Part shown: one piece after another, positions 5,958-30,823 of the stretch
Layout: every line of letters begins with the position of its first letter
Numbering within the stretch: the stretch's first letter is position 1
From: a virus
Virus record (IMG/VR): IMGVR_UViG_3300028840_008200
Location: 1 to 33,566 of that record
Length of the DNA: 33,566 bases
Direction: 5' to 3' (one strand)
The notes under the pieces: model-generated
Database searches by the model: none
What the model was told of the DNA's origin: nothing
The model's input: the letters and a program-made list of their open reading frames with translations, nothing else
Program-made: the position numbers and the translations under genes

Positions 5958-6587
5958 ATGGACGGTCTCAAACGCATCTACATCGCCGGGCCGATGACCG
6001 GCCTGCCAGAGCATAATTTCCCGGCCTTCCACGCGGCAGCCGAGCGGCTTCGCAATGCGAGATGGGACGTCGTGAATCCGGCGGACAACTTCGGTGGGCG
6101 GACCGACCTGCCGCGTTCGGCCTACCTGCGTGCTGACATCGTCGCGCTTCTTCAGTGCGACGCCATCGCATTGCTCCCCGGATGGGAGCTCTCCGCCGGC
6201 GCGGCGCTCGAGGCCGCCCTCGCCGCCGAAATCGGCCTGAGTTTCTTCGACGCGTCCTCCGGCACGCAGATGGAGGAGCCGCCCAGAACGTCCCTCTTCG
6301 TCGAACACGGCATGGCGTCCATCCTGGATACCGCCAAGCGGATCACCACCGGCCAGCGCCAGGAGGATTACGGCCATCCATCCGACGACTTCGGACGGGC
6401 ATCGCAAATGTGGACCGCGATCCTAGGCCATAAGCTGCGCGAGGGGGAGAAGGTGACGGCCGAGGATATCCCCCTGTGCATGATCGCCGTCAAGCTCGCC
6501 CGCCAGGCCCACCGCCACAAACGCGACAACCTGGTGGACATCGCCGGGTACGCCCGCACGGCCGCCATGATTGCGGGGGATGAGTAA
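5958..6587 (+). CDS. DUF4406-DUF6378 fusion (nucleoside deoxyribosyltransferase-like)
   Basis: The 209-residue protein has two parts. Residues 1-95 (RIYIAGPMTGLPEHNFPAF, then CDAIALLPGWELSAGA) match DUF4406, related to nucleoside 2-deoxyribosyltransferases. Residues about 120-209 (ILDTAKRITTGQRQEDYGHP, AEDIPLCMIAVKLARQAHR, DNLVDIAGYA) match DUF6378, a helical domain common in phage nucleotide genes. Both domains occur separately in many phages. A role in nucleotide pool handling or base salvage is inferred. The start follows GGAGAAC by a few bases and the end overlaps the next ATG. Confidence 0.8.
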   Translation: MDGLKRIYIAGPMTGLPEHNFPAFHAAAERLRNARWDVVNPADNFGGRTDLPRSAYLRADIVALLQCDAIALLPGWELSAGAALEAALAAEIGLSFFDASSGTQMEEPPRTSLFVEHGMASILDTAKRITTGQRQEDYGHPSDDFGRASQMWTAILGHKLREGEKVTAEDIPLCMIAVKLARQAHRHKRDNLVDIAGYARTAAMIAGDE

Positions 6588-6823: not shown

Positions 6824-8535
6824 TGGCATGCGCCACTGCCCCAACAGCGATCACGCTGCGCCCGTACCAGACCGAAGCGGTCAGCGCCGTCTACGATCAC
6901 CTGCGCCAGCGCGACGATCACCCCTGCGTGGTGATCCCGACGGCAGGCGGCAAGACGCCGGTGATGGCCGCTATCTGCCGGGACACCGTAACGCAGTGGG
7001 ATGGACGGGTGCTGATATTGGCGCATGTAAAGGAACTGCTCGAACAGGCCGTCGATAAGCTCACGCACATGGCCCCGGACCTGTGGAATCGGATCGGGGT
7101 CTACTCGGCGGGGCTCAAGAGTCGCGACATCGAGCACCCGATCATCGTGGCAGGAATTCAGAGCGTCTATCGCCGTGCGGCCGAGCTCGACCGCTTCGAT
7201 CTTGTTCTGATCGACGAGGCGCACATGCTGCCGCCCGACGGCGAGGGCATGTATCGCACATTCCTGGCCGACGCTCATGTGGTGAATCCCAGTGTCAGGC
7301 TGATCGGCCTGACGGCGACGCCCTATCGCATGACCACGGGGATGATCTGCGGGCCGGAGAACCTGCTGAATCACGTGTGCTACGAGGTGGGCGCGCGTGA
7401 GTTGATCGTCCAGGGCTACCTCTGCCCGCTGAAGACCAAGGCCGGTCGCCAGAAGGTCGATACATCGGACCTGCATATCCGGGGCGGTGAGTTCATCGCC
7501 GGAGAGGTCGAGGCGTTGATGGACGACGACGCGCTGGTCCGATCGGCCTGCCGCGAAATCGTCGATCACACCGGCGAGCGGCATTCGGTGCTGATTTTCG
7601 CCAGCGGAGTCAAACACGCCCGGCACGTGCAGAGCGTGCTCGGCGAGATGGGGCTGACGTGCGGCTTCGTCTGTGGGGAGACACTGTCTTCCGAGCGGGC
7701 CGATACGCTCGAGCGGTTCAAGGACGGAGACCTGAAGTACCTTGTCAACGTCAACGTGCTGACCACCGGCTTCGATGCGCCGAACATCGACTGTGTGGCG
7801 ATGCTGCGGCCGACCAACTCGCCGGGCCTCTACTACCAGATGGTCGGCCGCGGCTTCCGGCTTGATCCTTCCAAGGACGACTGCCTGGTCCTGGACTTCG
7901 GAGGCAACATCCTGCGCCATGGCCCTGTCGATGCCCTGGAGATCGGGGACCGATCATCCGGCAATGGGGAAGCGCCCGCCAAGGAATGCCCCGAGTGCCA
8001 GGCGGTGATCCACGCCGCCTACGGCACCTGCCCGGAGTGCGGCCATGAGTTCCCGCCGCCCGAACGCCAACAGCACGACCGCCAGGCATCGACCGCCGGC
8101 ATCCTCTCCGGTGAGGTCACCGAAAGCGAGTACGAGGTCACCGAGGTCTACTATAGCGTCCACGTCAAACGCGACGCGCCCGAAGACCACCCGCGCACGA
8201 TGCGCGTGGACTACCGCTGCGGCTTCAGCGACTACCGCAGCGAGTGGGTCTGCCCCGAACACACAGGCTACGCCAGGGGCAAGTTCGAGGCCTGGTGGCG
8301 GGCGCGATCCGGCGAGCCGCTGCCCGATATGGCCGAGCAGGCCGTGGAGATCTGCGAGGCAGGCGGCGTCGCCGAGACCAAGGCCATCACCGTCCGGTCG
8401 GTTACCGGCGAGAAATACGACCGAATCACCGACTACCAACTCGGCCCGATCCCGCCGAGGCTCGACGGCGGCGATGAGCGCGATGACGGCGAACTGCCTG
8501 AGCCCACCTGGCCTGAAGACGAGGTGCCGTTTTGA
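6820..8535 (+). CDS. Superfamily 2 DNA helicase with zinc ribbon
   Basis: The 571-residue protein has all main SF2 motifs. LRPYQTEAV is the Q-like start, PTAGGKT (residues 40-46) is Walker A, DEAH (132-135) is motif II, LTATPYR (about 164) is motif III, and QMVGRGFR (about 340) is motif VI. Residues 390-411 hold CPEC...CPEC, a four-Cys zinc ribbon. A C-terminal domain of about 140 residues is rich in aromatic and acidic residues and is unassigned. It resembles the UvrB/ResIII-type helicases near phage primases. It unwinds DNA in replication or recombination. Its 3' end overlaps the primase start. Confidence 0.88.
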   Translation: MMACATAPTAITLRPYQTEAVSAVYDHLRQRDDHPCVVIPTAGGKTPVMAAICRDTVTQWDGRVLILAHVKELLEQAVDKLTHMAPDLWNRIGVYSAGLKSRDIEHPIIVAGIQSVYRRAAELDRFDLVLIDEAHMLPPDGEGMYRTFLADAHVVNPSVRLIGLTATPYRMTTGMICGPENLLNHVCYEVGARELIVQGYLCPLKTKAGRQKVDTSDLHIRGGEFIAGEVEALMDDDALVRSACREIVDHTGERHSVLIFASGVKHARHVQSVLGEMGLTCGFVCGETLSSERADTLERFKDGDLKYLVNVNVLTTGFDAPNIDCVAMLRPTNSPGLYYQMVGRGFRLDPSKDDCLVLDFGGNILRHGPVDALEIGDRSSGNGEAPAKECPECQAVIHAAYGTCPECGHEFPPPERQQHDRQASTAGILSGEVTESEYEVTEVYYSVHVKRDAPEDHPRTMRVDYRCGFSDYRSEWVCPEHTGYARGKFEAWWRARSGEPLPDMAEQAVEICEAGGVAETKAITVRSVTGEKYDRITDYQLGPIPPRLDGGDERDDGELPEPTWPEDEVPF

Positions 8536-10979
8536 CCACCGCTATTGACAGCATCCAGGAGGCAGTAGCCCGGTATCTGACCGCCGGCCTGTGCGTTCTG
8601 CCCGCCATCCGGGCCGAAAAACGCCCCGCTGTGGGTCGGTGGAAGCAGTATCAGACCAGGCCGCCCACCCCCGCGGAGCTGTCGGCCTGGATGGCCAGCA
8701 GTCCCGATGCCGTCTGCATTCTCTGCGGGCAGGCCTCCCGTAACGCGGAGATTCTGGACTTCGACGCCAACGGCGAGTTGTTCGACCGATGGTGCGAGAA
8801 GCTCCGCGCAGCCGCGCCGGGCCTGCTGGAACGGCTGGTCCTCTCCCGAACGCAGTCAGACGGCCGGCACGCCGTCTACTGCTGCCAGACGCCGGTCTCC
8901 GGCAACATGAAGCTGGCCCAGCGCCGCGTGGGTGACAACATCGTCACGCTGATCGAGACCCGGGGCGAGGGCGGGCTGTTCCTCTGCGCCCCCACGGCCG
9001 GATACGAGCTGATCCAGGGCGACCTGGCAGACCCGCCCGTGCTGACCGGCCAAGAGCGCGACATCCTGCTCCAGGCGGCGTGGGAACTGAACGAATATCT
9101 GCCGCCGGTGGTCGATGGTCCGACGCACAGCGGCATTGTCGGCCAGAGAGCCGCGCTGTCGGCAGAGAATGGCGGCCCGTGCGCAGAGAACGCCCACAGC
9201 GGCGATTGTCCGTCAGACAATGGCCCGGCCGGCCAGAGAATGGCAATGTCCGTCGGACAGGCGGGCTGTTCGCCAGAGAATGCCGACAGGCCAGGCGATG
9301 ACTTCAACCGTCGCGGAGATGTGCGGGCTGTGCTCCAACAGCACGGCTGGGTGCGGGTAAAGGGCGGAGAGAACGAATACTGGCGCAGGCCCGGCAAGGA
9401 ATCGGGCACGTCGGCCACGTTGAAGGCGTGCGAAAACGGCCTGGTGTTCTACGTCTTCTCGTCCAATGCCGCGCCCTTCGAGCCCGGCCAGCCTTATTCG
9501 GCGTTCGCGGTGTACGCGCTGCTGAACCACGGCGGCGATTGGGCACAGGCTGCCAGTTCTCTGCGACTGTCTGGCTACGGCGGCGATTCTCTGGCAGACA
9601 ACGCCTCCGGCACAGACATCTCGGCCATCATGGAGATGTCCGCCGCACCCGGCGCTTGTCCGTCGGACAATGGCCATGGTGGGGCCCACAATGCCGACAA
9701 TGGCGATCATCGGCCGGACATTCCCGACCCCGGGCCGATCCCCGAACATCTCTTCCGTGTGCCGGGCCTTATCGAGCAGGTCATGGACTTCACGCTCGCC
9801 AATGCGCCCTATCCGAACGTCGGCCTGGCGTTCTGCGGGGCGATGGCCCTGCAGTCCTACCTGGCCGGCCGGAAGGTCTGCGATACCGGCGACCTTCGGC
9901 CCAACATCTACCTGCTGGCCCTGGCCTCCAGCGGCACCGGCAAGGACTTTCCCCGCAAGGTCAACGCCCGTGTGCTGTTCGAGATCGGGCACGTGGCGGC
10001 GCTGGGCGATAAGTTCGCCTCCGGGGAGGGCATCCAGGACGCCCTGGCGCGAACTCCGGCCATGCTGTTCCAGAACGATGAGATGGACGGCGTCCTGCGG
10101 CAGATCAACCTGGACCGCGAGAACAAACGCGAGTCGATCCCCAACATCCTGCTGACTCTCTACACCACCGCCGACGGCGTCTACCCCATCCGCGTCAAGG
10201 CCGGCCAGAAGGAAGCCGCCAGCATCGATCAGCCCCACCTGACCCTGTTCGGCACCGCCACGCCGCAGTACTTCTACGAGGCCCTCAGCCAGCGGATGCT
10301 GACCAATGGCTTTTTCGCCAGGCTGATCATCGTCGATATCGGCCAGCGCGGTCAGGGACAGACGCCCGGCTCGGCGCGACATCTGCCCGAGTCGATCCTC
10401 CAGACGGCCCGCTGGTGGGCCGAATACCAGCCCGGCAGCCGTAAGGCCAACCTGCTGGGCGTTCATCCCGAGCCGAAGCCGGTGCCGTACACACCCGAGG
10501 CCGACCAGGCCATCAAGGACCTGCAGCGCCAAACCGAGGCCGAATACGACCAGGCTCACGCCCGCAACGACGAGGTCGCCAAAGTCGCCTGGTCGCGGAC
10601 CACCGAAAACGCCAGCAAGTTGGCGCTGCTGTATGCCTGCAGCGAAAACCACGAGGACCCCGTCATCGGCCTGCCGGCCGTCCAGTGGGCGCGGGAGTTC
10701 GCCATGCACCAGACACGCCGGCAGCTGTTCCTGGCGTCCAGCTACGTGGCCGAGAATCCCTTCCACGCAGAGTGTCTGAAGCTCATCCGCAAGCTGCGGG
10801 AAGCACCGAGCCAAGAGCTGCCGCACAGCGTCCTGCTGAAGCGCATGAAGATGAAGACCAAGGACTTCAAGGAGCTGGTCGAAACGCTGGTTCAGCGCGG
10901 CGATGTGCTGACCCTGCCCGTTCAGACCTCCGGGCGAACCGGCCTGACGTATCGTCTGGCGGACGGGGAAGGAAGGTGA
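8532..10979 (+). CDS. Primase-polymerase / DUF3987-type replicative ATPase
   Basis: The start is TTG 8532, overlapping the helicase stop. The 815-residue protein combines an N-terminal primase-polymerase-like domain (residues about 10-190) with a C-terminal ATPase of the DUF3987 type (about 400-815). The first shows ILDFD near residue 74 and SDGRHAVYCC near 110, matching the DxD and sxH motifs of prim-pol. The ATPase has Walker A SSGTGKDFP near 465-472 and an Asp/Glu-rich QNDEMDGVL. Between them, residues about 195-400 form a low-complexity linker encoded by short palindromic repeats, interrupted by a compact segment around 260-350 with HGWVRVKGGENEYWRRPG. It likely primes and unwinds phage DNA at its origin. 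Confidence 0.85.
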   Translation: MTTAIDSIQEAVARYLTAGLCVLPAIRAEKRPAVGRWKQYQTRPPTPAELSAWMASSPDAVCILCGQASRNAEILDFDANGELFDRWCEKLRAAAPGLLERLVLSRTQSDGRHAVYCCQTPVSGNMKLAQRRVGDNIVTLIETRGEGGLFLCAPTAGYELIQGDLADPPVLTGQERDILLQAAWELNEYLPPVVDGPTHSGIVGQRAALSAENGGPCAENAHSGDCPSDNGPAGQRMAMSVGQAGCSPENADRPGDDFNRRGDVRAVLQQHGWVRVKGGENEYWRRPGKESGTSATLKACENGLVFYVFSSNAAPFEPGQPYSAFAVYALLNHGGDWAQAASSLRLSGYGGDSLADNASGTDISAIMEMSAAPGACPSDNGHGGAHNADNGDHRPDIPDPGPIPEHLFRVPGLIEQVMDFTLANAPYPNVGLAFCGAMALQSYLAGRKVCDTGDLRPNIYLLALASSGTGKDFPRKVNARVLFEIGHVAALGDKFASGEGIQDALARTPAMLFQNDEMDGVLRQINLDRENKRESIPNILLTLYTTADGVYPIRVKAGQKEAASIDQPHLTLFGTATPQYFYEALSQRMLTNGFFARLIIVDIGQRGQGQTPGSARHLPESILQTARWWAEYQPGSRKANLLGVHPEPKPVPYTPEADQAIKDLQRQTEAEYDQAHARNDEVAKVAWSRTTENASKLALLYACSENHEDPVIGLPAVQWAREFAMHQTRRQLFLASSYVAENPFHAECLKLIRKLREAPSQELPHSVLLKRMKMKTKDFKELVETLVQRGDVLTLPVQTSGRTGLTYRLADGEGR
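9130..9290 (+). repeat. Cluster of short palindromic repeats in the primase linker (block 1)
   Basis: Variants of TGTCCGTCGGACA occur here: TTGTCCGTCAGACAA at 9206-9220 and TGTCCGTCGGACA at 9247-9259. Several related half units GCCAGAGA(ATG) occur near 9142, 9230 and 9272, and GCAGAGAA near 9162 and 9183. All are in frame and encode the Ser/Gly/Asn-rich linker. The pattern looks like a propagated palindromic element rather than codon bias. Confidence 0.6.
9575..9725 (+). repeat. Cluster of short palindromic repeats in the primase linker (block 2)
   Basis: The same motif family reappears: TTCTCTGGCAGACAA at 9587-9601 (opposite orientation of the GCCAGAGAA unit) and the perfect 15-base palindrome TTGTCCGTCGGACAA at 9656-9670. 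These are followed by ACAATG units near 9688 and 9697. It codes for the linker just before the ATPase domain. Confidence 0.55.
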
Positions 10980-11651: not shown

Positions 11652-11926
11652 CCTGCGACGTATCGGTCGAGAGCGTATTGCGGCTGCTTGATGCCCAGCA
11701 GCACCGCTGCGCCCTGACGGGCCGCAGACTGACGCCGCAGACGGCCGCTCTCGATCACATCGTACCCGTTCGCTTCGGCGGCGAGCACGCCATCGACAAC
11801 GCCCAGGTTCTGCATAAGGACGTCAACCGCGCCAAGGGATCGCTGACGAACGAGGAATTCATCGGCATGTGCCGTGAGGTCGTCCGCCGGTCCGACGGCT
11901 ACATGACGCGAAAGGAGTCGCTATGA
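11648..11926 (+). CDS. Small HNH endonuclease
   Basis: A GTG at 11648 gives 92 residues. QQHRCALTG is the first metal Cys region of HNH nucleases. LDHIVPVRFGGEH holds the DH...P motif, and NAQVLHKDVNRAKGS holds the N...LH..N..K motif. The frame stays open far upstream, but that part reads through the preceding gene in another frame and is non-coding. Small HNH proteins in phages serve in packaging, as homing-like nucleases or as anti-competitor nucleases. Here it lies between replication and methylation genes and overlaps both. Confidence 0.8.
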   Translation: MTCDVSVESVLRLLDAQQHRCALTGRRLTPQTAALDHIVPVRFGGEHAIDNAQVLHKDVNRAKGSLTNEEFIGMCREVVRRSDGYMTRKESL

Positions 11927-13290
11927 CCACTACCAAGGACGCAACCACCCAGAAGTTCGCCGTCGAGCTGCGGAAGATCGACGACGTCCGCCCGTACGAG
12001 TGGAACCCTCGCATCAACGATCAGGCCGTCGACGCCGTGGCGGCCAGCCTCGCCGAGTTCGGCTTCCGCCAACCGATCGTCGTTGACGAAGACGGTGTGA
12101 TCATCGTCGGCCACACCCGCTGGAAGGCGGCCAAGCAGCTCGGCCTGGCCAAGGTGCCCGTCCACGTGGCCACCGACCTGACGCCTGAGCAGGTCCGCGC
12201 CTACAGGATCGCTGACAACAAGACCGGCGAGCTGGCCGACTGGGACCTGGAGATCCTGCCCATCGAACTCAACGAATTGCGCGAGGGCGGATTCGACATG
12301 GACGTGCTGGCCTTCGACGAGGAGGAACTGGGCAAGCTGCTGAGCAGCGCCCAGGGCGTGACGGAGGGGCTCACCGATCCGGACTCGATCCCCGAGCCGC
12401 CCGACGACCCGGTCGCGCAACGAGGCGACATCTGGGTGCTGGGCAATCACCGCCTCATGTGCGGCGACAGCGGTTCGCCTGAGGACCTGGACCGCCTGCT
12501 GGACGGTGCGACCATCGACCTTGTCAATATGGACCCGCCGTACAACGTCAAGGTCGAACCCCGCAGTTCCACGGCCATCGCCGCCGGCAACAGCTCGCAC
12601 CCGGACCTGTCGAAGAAAATGCACCACCAGGGCTTCGACGTCGCCCGGGGCGTCACCGATCCGAAGAAGGCACGCAAGAAGATGCGGGCCAAGGACCGGC
12701 CGCTGGAGAACGACTTCGTCACGGACGAGGCGTTCGACAAGATGCTGCTCGACTGGTTCGGCAACGCGTCTCGTGTGCTTAAGCCGGGCGGGTCCTTCTA
12801 CATCTGGGGAGGGTACGCCAACTTGGGCAACTATCCCGCGCCGCTCAAGAAATCCGGCCTGTACTTCAGCCAGGGAATCGTGTGGGACAAACAGCACCCC
12901 GTTTTGACGCGGAAGGACTTCATGGGGGCGTTTGAGATCTGCTTCTACGGCTGGAAGGAAGGCGCGGGCCATCACTTCTACGGCCCCAACAATGCGACCG
13001 ACCTCTGGCACGTCAAGAAGGTCAATCCCCAGGCGATGGTCCACCTGACCGAAAAGCCCGTCGAACTGGCCGTCCGCTCGATCCAGTATTCGTCCAAGCC
13101 CGGCGAGAACGTCCTGGACCTCTTCGGCGGAAGCGGCTCGACGCTGATTGGCTGTGAGCAGACCGACCGCCGTGCATTCCTGATGGAGCTGGACCAGGCG
13201 TACTGCGACGTGATCGTCAAGCGGTGGGAGGACTTCACGGGGCGGAAAGCAGAGCGGCTGGTATCCGCCAAACCGGAAGAAGTGGCCTAA
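11923..13290 (+). CDS. ParB-like / DNA adenine methyltransferase fusion
   Basis: The 455-residue protein starts with a ParB/Srx-like domain (residues about 10-120: RPYEWNPRIND, GFRQPIVVDEDGVIIVGHTRW). A methyltransferase of the N6-adenine/N4-cytosine class follows. The catalytic DPPY motif is at residues 204-207 (VNMDPPYNVKV) and the AdoMet-binding LFGGSGST near 400-407. The DPPY-before-FxGxG order is that of the beta class. This fusion is common in phages, where an orphan methylase marks phage DNA against host restriction. No cognate restriction enzyme is adjacent, apart from a small HNH gene. The start overlaps the HNH stop (ATGA). Confidence 0.92.
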   Translation: MTTTKDATTQKFAVELRKIDDVRPYEWNPRINDQAVDAVAASLAEFGFRQPIVVDEDGVIIVGHTRWKAAKQLGLAKVPVHVATDLTPEQVRAYRIADNKTGELADWDLEILPIELNELREGGFDMDVLAFDEEELGKLLSSAQGVTEGLTDPDSIPEPPDDPVAQRGDIWVLGNHRLMCGDSGSPEDLDRLLDGATIDLVNMDPPYNVKVEPRSSTAIAAGNSSHPDLSKKMHHQGFDVARGVTDPKKARKKMRAKDRPLENDFVTDEAFDKMLLDWFGNASRVLKPGGSFYIWGGYANLGNYPAPLKKSGLYFSQGIVWDKQHPVLTRKDFMGAFEICFYGWKEGAGHHFYGPNNATDLWHVKKVNPQAMVHLTEKPVELAVRSIQYSSKPGENVLDLFGGSGSTLIGCEQTDRRAFLMELDQAYCDVIVKRWEDFTGRKAERLVSAKPEEVA

Positions 13291-27473: not shown

Positions 27474-27707
27474 GTGGGCCTGCTTGGCAAAATCGCGGAC
27501 TTCCTGGGCCGATTGCTGGCGGCGCTGATACCGGCCATCGGCCGGGAAGTCCGGAAGAACAAGACGGTCAAACAGACTGGAGCCGACCATGAAACGCTGG
27601 AAACGCTGGATCGTGATGTTTGGGACGCTGCTACTTCTGACAGGGTGCAGCAACATCTTCGCTCCCAGGATCGAGCCGCACCCGGACGCCCCGATCCTGG
27701 TGACTGA
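27474..27707 (+). CDS. Small amphipathic/membrane-associated protein, possible spanin-like partner
   Basis: From GTG 27474 (AGGAGA ahead) the product is 77 residues. The N-terminus GLLGKIADFLGRLLAALIPAIG is a hydrophobic to amphipathic helix, followed by a charged basic part. The final 39 residues overlap the lipoprotein gene that begins at 27589 in another frame. The tail may be mainly a by-product of that overlap. Membrane-attached with a nested lipoprotein recalls Rz/Rz1, but it has no clear periplasmic coiled coil. Confidence 0.5.
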   Translation: MGLLGKIADFLGRLLAALIPAIGREVRKNKTVKQTGADHETLETLDRDVWDAATSDRVQQHLRSQDRAAPGRPDPGD

Positions 27708-27870
27708 CACCTTCGGCGGGTTCGTCAAGGGCGCGGTGTACGACAAGGAGCGCAACGAGATGCTGCCATGCGGGTGGTTCTGGGTCGGCCGCTACGACGG
27801 CTGGACGCTGCACAAGTTCGACTGGAACCAGCGGATCGAGGCCGAGCAGGCTTCGGATGATCCGGAGTAG
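27589..27870 (+). CDS. Small lipoprotein, nested start
   Basis: The 93-residue protein has a lipoprotein signal: basic MKRWKRW, hydrophobic IVMFGTLLLL and lipobox LTGCS with Cys about residue 20. The mature part is short and polar with aromatic clusters (CGWFWVGRYDGW) and an acidic end. It starts inside the preceding gene in the +1 frame, by 119 bases. That nesting and the lipobox recall Rz1-like outer-membrane spanin subunits, though it is longer and not proline-rich. The frame runs opposite to the fluoride cassette just downstream. Confidence 0.72.
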   Translation: MKRWKRWIVMFGTLLLLTGCSNIFAPRIEPHPDAPILVTDTFGGFVKGAVYDKERNEMLPCGWFWVGRYDGWTLHKFDWNQRIEAEQASDDPE

Positions 27871-27914
27871 GAAAACTTGGCTCGGAGTCGGCGGACCCGG
27901 AAATGACCCGTACC

Positions 27915-28271
27915 CTACTGCAAGGCATCGCCTGTGCCCTCGCCGTGTCGGTAGGCCAGGATACGGACCTTCTCCAACGTAATCAGCCCTTCCTTCACCA
28001 TCCGATCCAGTTCGGGAAGGAATCGCTCGATGCGTTCGGCCTTGTCGGCGATCTCGATGACGATCGGCAGGTCTTCCGAGAGTCTCAGTATCTTGGCCGT
28101 GTGGATGCGGCTGTGGGCACCGAACCCTTCCAGTCCACGAAGGACCGTGGCTCCCGCCAGGCCACACTCGCGCGCCTTGCGAACGATGGCTTCGTAGAGC
28201 GGCTTTCCTTCCCATCGGTCGCTTTCTCCGATGAACACCCTGACCAGTTGTCCTTCGCCTTCGGTCTTCAT
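27915..28271 (-). CDS. DUF190 protein, fluoride-cassette partner of CrcB
   Basis: The 118-residue protein matches DUF190 (QLVRVFIGESDRWEGKPLYE, then AIVRKARECGLAGATVLRGL and SEDLPIVIEIADKAERIERF). These small ferredoxin-like proteins are often encoded beside crcB and controlled by fluoride riboswitches. AAGGAG stands before the ATG, 11 bases after the CrcB stop, so both are one operon. Exact role in fluoride handling is not settled. Confidence 0.88.
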   Translation of the reverse strand: MKTEGEGQLVRVFIGESDRWEGKPLYEAIVRKARECGLAGATVLRGLEGFGAHSRIHTAKILRLSEDLPIVIEIADKAERIERFLPELDRMVKEGLITLEKVRILAYRHGEGTGDALQ

Positions 28272-28282
28272 TCCGGTCTCCT

Positions 28283-28663
28283 TCAGACGCCAATGGCTCT
28301 GACCGCGACCCAGCCGAGCATGACCGCCGCGAGGCCCAGAAGCACGTTGACCGCGACGTTAAGCGTGGCCATTTGGAAATCGCTTGCTCGGAAGAACTCG
28401 AACGTCTCGTACCCCACCGTGGAGAACGTCGTAAACGACCCGAGGAGTCCGACCAGCAGGAAGAGGCGCGTGGTGGGGCTGAACATCTGCCTCTGTTCCA
28501 GCAGACACATCAGGCCGCCGATCAGCAGGCAGCCGACGACGTTCACCGTCAACGTTCCGGCGGGAAAGGACGTCCTGGAGAGTCGGTGGACCAAACCGGA
28601 AAGCGAGTACCGGGCGACCGCGCCCAGGAAGCCGCCCAGGCCAATAACCATTAGTTTGAGCAT
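28283..28663 (-). CDS. crcB: CrcB/Fluc fluoride channel
   Basis: The 126-residue membrane protein has four hydrophobic segments. Signatures are GGFLGAVARYSLSG near the start, TVNVVGCLLIGG in the middle and GLLGSFTTFSTVGYE, the Fluc pore Phe/Thr-Ser motif. Fluc forms antiparallel dimers that export fluoride. It runs opposite to the tail operon. Its SD (AGGAG, 28670-28674) lies 6 bases from the ATG and inside a hairpin linked to a fluoride riboswitch. Confidence 0.94.
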   Translation of the reverse strand: MLKLMVIGLGGFLGAVARYSLSGLVHRLSRTSFPAGTLTVNVVGCLLIGGLMCLLEQRQMFSPTTRLFLLVGLLGSFTTFSTVGYETFEFFRASDFQMATLNVAVNVLLGLAAVMLGWVAVRAIGV

Positions 28664-28669
28664 GTCTAA

Positions 28670-28693
28670 CTCCTACCAGCAATTCGGTAGGAG
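28670..28693 (-). promoter_or_regulatory. Riboswitch expression platform: SD-masking hairpin
   Basis: On the minus strand CTCCTACC (28693 to 28686) pairs perfectly over 8 bases with GGTAGGAG (28677 to 28670) around an 8-base loop. The 3' arm contains the crcB SD. The 5' arm is also the 3' end of the fluoride aptamer. So ligand binding would free the SD. No U tract follows, pointing to translational control. Confidence 0.82.
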
Positions 28694-28734
28694 TCATCAG
28701 CCTCATTGGCGGTCAAGGGCAGACTCCATTGCCC
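28686..28734 (-). ncRNA. Fluoride riboswitch (crcB motif)
   Basis: The minus strand reads GGGCAATGGAGTCTGCCC, then TTGACCGCC, a short spacer, then GGCTGATGACTCCTACC. It matches the fluoride aptamer: the GATGGAG-like 5' part, the ACCGCC segment and the conserved GCTGATGACTCCTAC end, with pairing of GGAGT and ACTCC and the pseudoknot. It is directly upstream of crcB, its classic target. Identified by pattern, not by covariance search. Confidence 0.93.
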
Positions 28735-28755
28735 AGCGATCCCTGCGTCGCTGTG

Positions 28756-28784
28756 GTTGTAACCGATTGGGGATTCACGGTCAA
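28756..28784 (-). promoter_or_regulatory. Sigma70-type promoter of the fluoride cassette
   Basis: Minus-strand TTGACC (28784 to 28779) and TACAAC (28761 to 28756) are spaced 17 bases apart. The start would be about 10-20 bases upstream of the aptamer. It overlaps the leader of the rightward tape-measure gene, whose ATG is 28802 on the other strand. Confidence 0.72.
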
Positions 28785-28801
28785 GGGGATGGCGGCGCGC
28801 T

Positions 28802-30823
28802 ATGACATCCACCCAAGGCATCCGAGCCGGCCGTGCGTTCGTCGAGTTGTTCGCCGACGACAGCAAGCTTGTGCGCGGCCTGCGGGCGGCGCAGGCGAAG
28901 ATCAAGGCGTTCGGGGTGAACGTCCGCGACTTCGGCCTCAAGCTCATGGGCCTGGGCGCGGCCATGCTCGCGCCGCTGGCGGCATCGGCAAAGTATTTCA
29001 GCGGCTACGGCGACCAGGTCGCCAAGATGGCCAAGCGGACCGGCGTCTCGACCGAGACGCTCAGCGAGCTTCGCTTCGTGGCCAGCCAGACCGGCACGGA
29101 GTTCGAGACGCTGGAGAACGCCTTCCGCAAGATGCAGAGGTCGATCTACGATGCCGGGCGCGGGCTTTCCACGCAGACCGACGCGCTGGCCGATCTGGGC
29201 TTGAAGTACGAGGATTTCGTGGGACTCTCGCCCGAGCAGCAGTTCAAGCTGCTGGCCGACGCCATATCGAAGGTCGAGGACCCCACCACCAAGGCCGCCA
29301 TCGCCATGTCGCTTTTCGGCAGGACGGGGACGAACCTGCTGCCGATGTTCGCCGCCGGGGCCGAGGGCATCGAGCAGCTCCAGGAAGAGGCCCGGCGGCT
29401 GGGGCTGACCATGAGCGGCGAGGACGCCAAGGCAGCCGAGGACTTCACCGACGCGATGGACCGGCTGTGGAAGGTCGTCAAGATGGGCGTGTTCAACGTG
29501 GGCGCTGCCCTCGCCCCGGCACTGCAGCGGCTTGCAGGTGTTCTCACATCCGTCGCGACGTATGTAAGCAACTGGATCAAGCAGAACCGCGAGGTCATCG
29601 TCACCGTGGCCAAAGTAGCCGTCATCGTCCTGGCGGCGGGAGTGGCGCTTGCCATACTCGGCACTGTCATATCCGGCCTGGGTTCCGTTCTCGGGGCATT
29701 GATCACGGTCATAACCACCGTCGGCACCGTCCTGAAGCTTTTCGGGGCGGTGATCGCCTTCCTCGTCTCGCCCATCGGTATGGTCATCGCAGCGCTGGCG
29801 GCGCTGGGCGGATACCTGGTCTATACTTCCGGCCAGGGAGGTAAAGCCCTGGGCTGGCTGGGCGATAAGTTCAACGTGCTGAAGCAGGACGCGATGGCGG
29901 CCTACCAGGGCATATCCGACGCCCTGGCGGCGGGCGACATGGCCCTGGCGGTCAAGGTCCTATGGCTGACGCTCAAGATGGAGTGGACCCGCGGCGTGAA
30001 CCTGATCGAGAAGGCGTGGCTGAACTTCCGCAACTTCTTCGTGCGTGTAGGCTACGACGCCTTCCACGGGCTGCTGGCGGTGGCGGAGATAATTTGGCAC
30101 GGCCTGGAGGTCGGGTGGATAGAGACGACGGCGTTTTTCAGCAAGCTGTGGACGAACTTCGGCAGCTTCTTCGCCAAGACTTGGGAACGGATCAAGGCCG
30201 GGGCGAAAAAGGCCTGGAACTGGATCAAGAGCCTCTTCAGCGACTCGGTGGACCTGGAGGCCGAGAACCGCCTCGTCGAGGAGGAGAAGAACCGCGCCAT
30301 CTCCCAGATCGAGGACGAGCAGCAGCGGAAGATCGCAGAGCGGGAGGCGCAGAGGCAATCGGAGCGCGAGCGGGCGGCGGCCGTGCATGAGGCCACGCTG
30401 GCCGAGATAGGCCGGCAGAACCTCGAAAAGCACCAGCAGCTCGACGCGGAATACGCCGACCGCATGGCCGAAAACGAGGCCGACCTTGCTGCCGCACGCC
30501 AGGAGTGGCAGGACGCACTCGACGTCGCCCGTCAGAAGCGGGAGGCGAAAGAGGCCGAAGGCCCGGGCCCGGAGGGCATGGAAGGCCCGCAGGCGATAAT
30601 CGACGCGGCCCAGGCGGCCCTGGCCGGCCTGGGCGACGTGGGCGATGTCATCTCCGAACAGGCCGAAAAGATCGGCGTCAAGGGGACGTTCAACGCCGCA
30701 GCCGTCCGGGCGCTGGCGGCAGGCGACGCCGCAGATCGCACGGCCCAGGCCACCGAGGAGACTGCCAAGAACACCAAGCGCCTGGTCCAGGAGGCCCAGA
30801 GCGGCGGGCTTACGTTCGCCTAG
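28802..30823 (+). CDS. Tail tape measure protein
   Basis: The 673-residue protein sets tail length. The N-terminal part (SKLVRGLRAAQAKIKAFGVN, GDQVAKMAKRTGVSTETLSE, LSPEQQFKLLADAISKV) is the tape-measure core pattern. Hydrophobic segments span about residues 262-345 (VIVLAAGVALAILGTVISGL). An amphipathic middle (FFSKLWTNFGSFFAKTWERI) and a long charged coiled coil (about 480-590, AENRLVEEEKNRAISQIEDE) follow. GGGGA lies ahead of the ATG. It is short for a tape measure, implying a short tail. It is preceded by the opposite-strand fluoride cassette, which separates it from the chaperones. Confidence 0.9.
   Translation: MTSTQGIRAGRAFVELFADDSKLVRGLRAAQAKIKAFGVNVRDFGLKLMGLGAAMLAPLAASAKYFSGYGDQVAKMAKRTGVSTETLSELRFVASQTGTEFETLENAFRKMQRSIYDAGRGLSTQTDALADLGLKYEDFVGLSPEQQFKLLADAISKVEDPTTKAAIAMSLFGRTGTNLLPMFAAGAEGIEQLQEEARRLGLTMSGEDAKAAEDFTDAMDRLWKVVKMGVFNVGAALAPALQRLAGVLTSVATYVSNWIKQNREVIVTVAKVAVIVLAAGVALAILGTVISGLGSVLGALITVITTVGTVLKLFGAVIAFLVSPIGMVIAALAALGGYLVYTSGQGGKALGWLGDKFNVLKQDAMAAYQGISDALAAGDMALAVKVLWLTLKMEWTRGVNLIEKAWLNFRNFFVRVGYDAFHGLLAVAEIIWHGLEVGWIETTAFFSKLWTNFGSFFAKTWERIKAGAKKAWNWIKSLFSDSVDLEAENRLVEEEKNRAISQIEDEQQRKIAEREAQRQSERERAAAVHEATLAEIGRQNLEKHQQLDAEYADRMAENEADLAAARQEWQDALDVARQKREAKEAEGPGPEGMEGPQAIIDAAQAALAGLGDVGDVISEQAEKIGVKGTFNAAAVRALAAGDAADRTAQATEETAKNTKRLVQEAQSGGLTFA

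Follow-up and report, generated by a model that had tools for sequence, protein, structure and literature searches.

A predicted translational fluoride switch in a crcB cassette beside a phage tape-measure gene

The window analyzed here, i.e., the whole 33,566-nucleotide stretch of the IMG/VR virus record IMGVR_UViG_3300028840_008200, contains portal, terminase, head, tail tube, and tape-measure genes and, on its minus strand, a leader followed by crcB, the classic fluoride riboswitch target. The locus raises the questions of how this leader would control crcB and how such a cassette came to lie in a phage genome. An earlier note had proposed that a single strand serves both a fluoride aptamer and a hairpin hiding the crcB Shine-Dalgarno (SD) sequence. 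The locus is very probably a translational fluoride ON switch, and its cassette (riboswitch, crcB, DUF190, and possibly its own promoter) an accessory insertion in the phage. Taken by itself, the leader is a fluoride riboswitch of the ordinary kind and belongs to a known class; the phage location is its sole unusual part and the part worth remembering.

The aptamer and its operon

The fluoride riboswitch aptamer (28742-28681, minus strand) is the sole match of the whole record to Rfam family RF01734, at 47.5 bits (E 2.4e-10; gathering score, 34). Stem P1, supported by the Rfam alignment and the fold, pairs 28734-28730 with 28721-28717 and encloses the loop strand GGAGUC (28727-28722), which is complementary to the 3′ strand GACUCC (28695-28690) and forms the pseudoknot with it; a second stem in the Rfam alignment pairs GCC (28710-28708) with GGC (28702-28700). 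The aptamer, which would bind fluoride, sits immediately 5′ of the fluoride-resistance gene crcB (28663-28283, minus strand; 126 aa; Fluc fluoride channel; PF02537, E 6.7e-27), which would be under its control and is followed in the same operon by a DUF190/COG1993 gene (28271-27915, minus strand; 118 aa; PF02641, E 2e-43). The CrcB N terminus aligns with those of homologues, with the start at 28663, and the invariant columns of the domain are kept. In the TTFSTF segment, which reads TTFSTV in the phage protein, the second Phe is replaced by Val; this Phe is a pore-lining residue in Fluc channels, and transport could therefore differ. The closest chromosomal CrcBs found share no more than approximately 50% identity with the phage protein and belong to many phyla, and crcB-DUF190 pairs also occur in chromosomes (L086, L089-L091, L094, and L097). 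Between the start of the tape-measure gene and the aptamer, a weak candidate sigma-70-like promoter, TTGACC-17 nt-TACAAC (28784-28756, minus strand), was recognized by eye; the promoter scan, which demands T at the last position, did not call it. No terminator was found after DUF190 (fold z -0.3).

One strand for pseudoknot and hairpin

The shared strand GACUCCUACC (28695-28686, minus strand) comprises the pseudoknot 3′ strand GACUCC and the hairpin 5′ arm, as supported by the sequence, the Rfam alignment, the fold, and covariation with the downstream arm in homologues. Within it, CTCCTACC, which the earlier note had described as both the aptamer 3′ end and the hairpin 5′ arm, is indeed located at 28693-28686, and GGTAGGAG is located at 28677-28670, both on the minus strand. 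The hairpin that was said to hide the crcB SD exists, although the proposed length of 8 bp was too short: the fold (28696-28667, minus strand) has 12 pairs including two G-U, formed by 28696-28685 with 28678-28667 around a loop at 28684-28679, with an energy of -17.2 kcal/mol. The masked SD, AGGAG (28674-28670, minus strand), belongs to crcB as claimed, being followed after six bases by the ATG at 28663 of the frame that matches PF02537. This alternative hairpin therefore shares a strand with the aptamer and contains the SD, as in a translational platform.

The hairpin takes the same GACUCC as the pseudoknot, plus UACC, and its SD arm contains GGAGU, with letters identical to those of the aptamer loop, such that loop and SD are direct competitors. 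Since GGAGUC (28727-28722) and the SD arm contend for the same GACUCC (28695-28690), the proposed mutual exclusion of aptamer and hairpin follows directly from the sequence. The competition between the loop GGAGUC and the SD arm GGUAGGAGUU for one strand is unusually clean, and the locus adds a further clear example of strand exchange, a well-studied mechanism, in its translational form. When the 45 downstream bases were shuffled 20,000 times, an equally good helix arose by chance in 11 cases, compared with 162 of 20,000 (0.8%) when AGGAG was held in place; the latter is the fairer figure because any SD is partly complementary to CUCCU.

For the predicted hairpin, comparative evidence is stronger than the shuffle statistic. 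Fluoride riboswitches were fetched from three phyla, with approximately 300 genomes per phylum sampled around one Acidobacteriota, one Verrucomicrobia, and one Glycocaulis genome; above-cut-off matches were found in 92 of 297, 35 of 289, and 40 of 299 genomes, respectively, and the sample consists of the best-scoring matches of the three phyla and gives no frequency estimate. Across 86 non-redundant loci, pairing of the shared strand is far better with the downstream sequence of the same locus than with one exchanged from another locus (z ~11), relatedness being controlled by removal of downstream sequences more than 70% alike and nothing further. The same test yielded z ~6.7 for the 55 loci with a fixed ACTCCT core, and for the 24 loci with AGGAG downstream the observed value was reached by 1 of 2000 permutations. 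The pair CTCCTACC/GGTAGGAG recurs in L121, as CTCCTACC-TCAAC-GGTAGGAG, and in L125, and is replaced by CTCCTACG/CGTAGGAG in L138 and L144, CTCCTACA/TGTAGGAG in L127, and CTCCTATC/GATAGGAG in L193. After the downstream partner, some loci have a U run (terminators) and others a start codon, L121, L125, L119, and L193 being chromosomal translational parallels; an automatic classification by a crude rule with many misses assigned 17 platforms to terminators, 17 to SD, and 62 to others. A study of 1901 fluoride riboswitches (2026) reported a conserved aptamer-hairpin overlap with covariation at the pseudoknot for terminators and took its widest motif to cover translational platforms too (PMC13273304). 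Given this published overlap and the chromosomal covariation, the mechanism is sound and already known in kind; the window is a translational version of it, and the mechanism is not novel.

Predicted translational output and probable kinetic switching

Fluoride-gated SD exposure is the best-supported reading of the leader and is predicted to proceed as follows. The aptamer would emerge first, and its loop GGAGUC would pair with GACUCC to form the pseudoknot. Bound fluoride would lock the pseudoknot, such that the arm UGGUAGGAGUUA, located in the next 30 bases, could not displace the loop, and AGGAG would remain free for the translation of CrcB (and DUF190). When fluoride is absent, the SD arm would invade the pseudoknot, build the 12-pair hairpin, and mask the SD; the hairpin-arm letters GGUAGGAG would be needed for this repression.

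The output would be translational. The hairpin is followed by neither a U tract, whose absence had been pointed out before, nor an intrinsic terminator, as judged from the sequence and a terminator scan. Translational control, which the earlier note had preferred to transcriptional control, is the natural reading because the U tract is absent and the 3′ arm holds a well-spaced SD, and it gains support from the recurrence of this layout in chromosomes. Alternatively, transcription could be stopped without fluoride by the same hairpin, which is an intrinsic terminator in many fluoride riboswitches (L002, L157, L172, L161, and L171), or by Rho, which could act on the RNA while crcB is untranslated. 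This alternative is unlikely, as the hairpin is followed here only by UU, the scan returned no terminator-like site in 27800-28900, and the SD lies well spaced within the 3′ arm. The fluoride riboswitch of L002 (6878-6960, plus strand), located close to a tRNA gene and to the end of its contig, forms this hairpin too (ACTCCTACC/GGTAGGGGT), with TTTT after it, and is likely a terminator version.

For the translational switch, folding energies were obtained from models that contain neither pseudoknots nor tertiary contacts. The SD is fully paired in the fold of the full-length leader. Modelling with and without aptamer constraints, proposed in the earlier note as a check, bears out the expected effect: the cost of opening the SD decreased from 10.6 to 4.2 kcal/mol when P1 was imposed and the pseudoknot bases were blocked. 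SD exposure may be partial, because even under the imposed aptamer the model retains some UACCG/UGGUA pairing and still pairs the SD with sequence elsewhere. The aptamer state costs approximately 14.8 kcal/mol before credit for pseudoknot and fluoride, and the pseudoknot duplex amounts to approximately -8 kcal/mol versus -17 kcal/mol for the hairpin. These models suggest that the hairpin should win at equilibrium. In a series of transcript lengths folded without pseudoknots, non-hairpin structures win up to approximately 28675 and the hairpin from approximately 28673 onward. Because the hairpin is so stable, as judged from the costs of SD opening and of the aptamer state, fluoride probably acts kinetically during transcription and not by an equilibrium shift; the hairpin being far stabler than the pseudoknot, slow binding of fluoride would leave the switch in its off state. 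In the Bacillus cereus switch, the pseudoknot forms first and is then displaced by the terminator unless fluoride is bound; fluoride blocks this displacement, and fluoride riboswitches act kinetically (PMC11077080).

The same difference between hairpin and pseudoknot energies could also mean that the leader is decayed or non-switching, with crcB in the phage constitutively silent or expressed at a low level. This is highly improbable, considering that the aptamer core is intact at 47.5 bits, that crcB and DUF190 are intact, that helices are as long in the chromosomal homologues L125, L193, and L183, and that kinetic action of fluoride riboswitches is known (PMC11077080).

A cargo site in phage genomes

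In antisense orientation, the cassette occupies the junction (27870-28802) between a phage lipoprotein gene (27589-27870, plus strand) and the tail tape-measure gene (28802-30823, plus strand; phrog_9483, E 3.9e-42). Via the tape-measure protein, 80 viral relatives were fetched. In the 23 relatives for which a similar lipoprotein was found, its gene ends 5-28 bp before the tape-measure gene in 19 and 395-871 bp before it in four, compared with 931 bp in the window. Other cargo occupies the same junction in L004, L007, L031, and L041. The insert of L007 is a Mom DNA-modification gene. As the junction is closed to 5-28 bp in 19 of 23 relatives but filled in four, it is regarded as a variable cargo site of a large phage family, and the crcB cassette as a moron-like insertion. 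An assembly chimera, in which a bacterial riboswitch-crcB-DUF190 fragment was falsely joined into a phage contig, is scarcely credible: although the cassette was found only once in the viral contigs, the genes on either side of it belong to the phage and keep the gene order of the relatives, the cassette fits exactly the junction that holds other cargo, and two false joins would be required. Elsewhere in the window, one gene (11923-13290, plus strand) encodes an N6/N4 DNA methyltransferase with a fused ParB-like domain, and the two halves of one open reading frame (5958-6587, plus strand) match different families, the first a nucleoside deoxyribosyltransferase family and the second a family that bears the label phosphofructokinase.

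Few viral contigs encode CrcB: when 2.9 million contigs were scanned under the guidance of a profile, at least 10 loci were detected, a lower bound since the scan demands exact peptide patterns. The phage types described here come from loci other than L211, L212, L213, and L217. CrcB occurs in three phage types including the window, two of them with a riboswitch. In a different phage (L107, 1108-1650, minus strand; also L105 and L108), a fluoride riboswitch of 63 bits and CrcB lie beside a cytosine methyltransferase gene, and the SD pairs with the shared strand over only five bases. In an unrelated phage (L216, 4959-5369, plus strand), crcB lies antisense between the major tail protein gene and a small gene adjoining the tape-measure gene; no fluoride riboswitch was detected there, and L215 gave the same CrcB match. 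L216 would represent an independent CrcB capture at a similar place. No close relatives of the window CrcB or DUF190 were found in viral contigs, no CrcB match at E 1e-5 in the INPHARED phage collection, and no CrcB in the searched phage records related by tape measure, the matches L105, L107, and L108 in that search having come from the aptamer pattern and not from tape-measure kinship. L210, which looks like host flank (tRNA and cellular genes), was left out as phage CrcB; as fluoride riboswitches, L003 and L084 were rejected because they matched the short aptamer pattern without an Rfam fluoride riboswitch, and L106 because it scored below the cut-off. L003 carries two type-P5 twister ribozymes (7707-7775 and 8685-8741, plus strand) approximately 1 kb apart on one viral contig.

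From these sequences, it appears likely that phages have captured crcB more than once and that the window holds a self-contained fluoride-sensing, fluoride-export moron. The cassette suggests fluoride resistance as phage cargo, of which no description was found in the literature searched, although absence is not thereby proven. If true, infection or lysogeny could give the host fluoride tolerance on demand, and the cassette would presumably benefit phage or host.

Like phage morons, the cassette is antisense and occupies a gene junction, next to the tape-measure gene, that is otherwise closed; its cargo is predicted fluoride export under a riboswitch, with its own promoter only suggested and no terminator found. 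With the RF01734/crcB-motif class, it shares the aptamer, a pseudoknot strand common to the downstream hairpin, and crcB downstream, and differs in its SD-sequestering instead of terminator platform and its phage location. Reports of translational fluoride riboswitches exist for hyperthermophilic archaea (Speed et al., 2018, cited in PMC11077080), and earlier work inferred such riboswitches (Weinberg, 2010; Baker, 2012, cited in PMC8814607). The window, which is bacterial-phage DNA, resembles these as described, in having a fluoride aptamer that is predicted to govern ribosome access. Finally, Acidobacteriota chromosomes (L090 and L091) contain the same three parts, riboswitch, crcB, and DUF190, in the same order as the window, with CrcB 42-44% and DUF190 approximately 60% identical, whereas their platforms are terminators with a U run.
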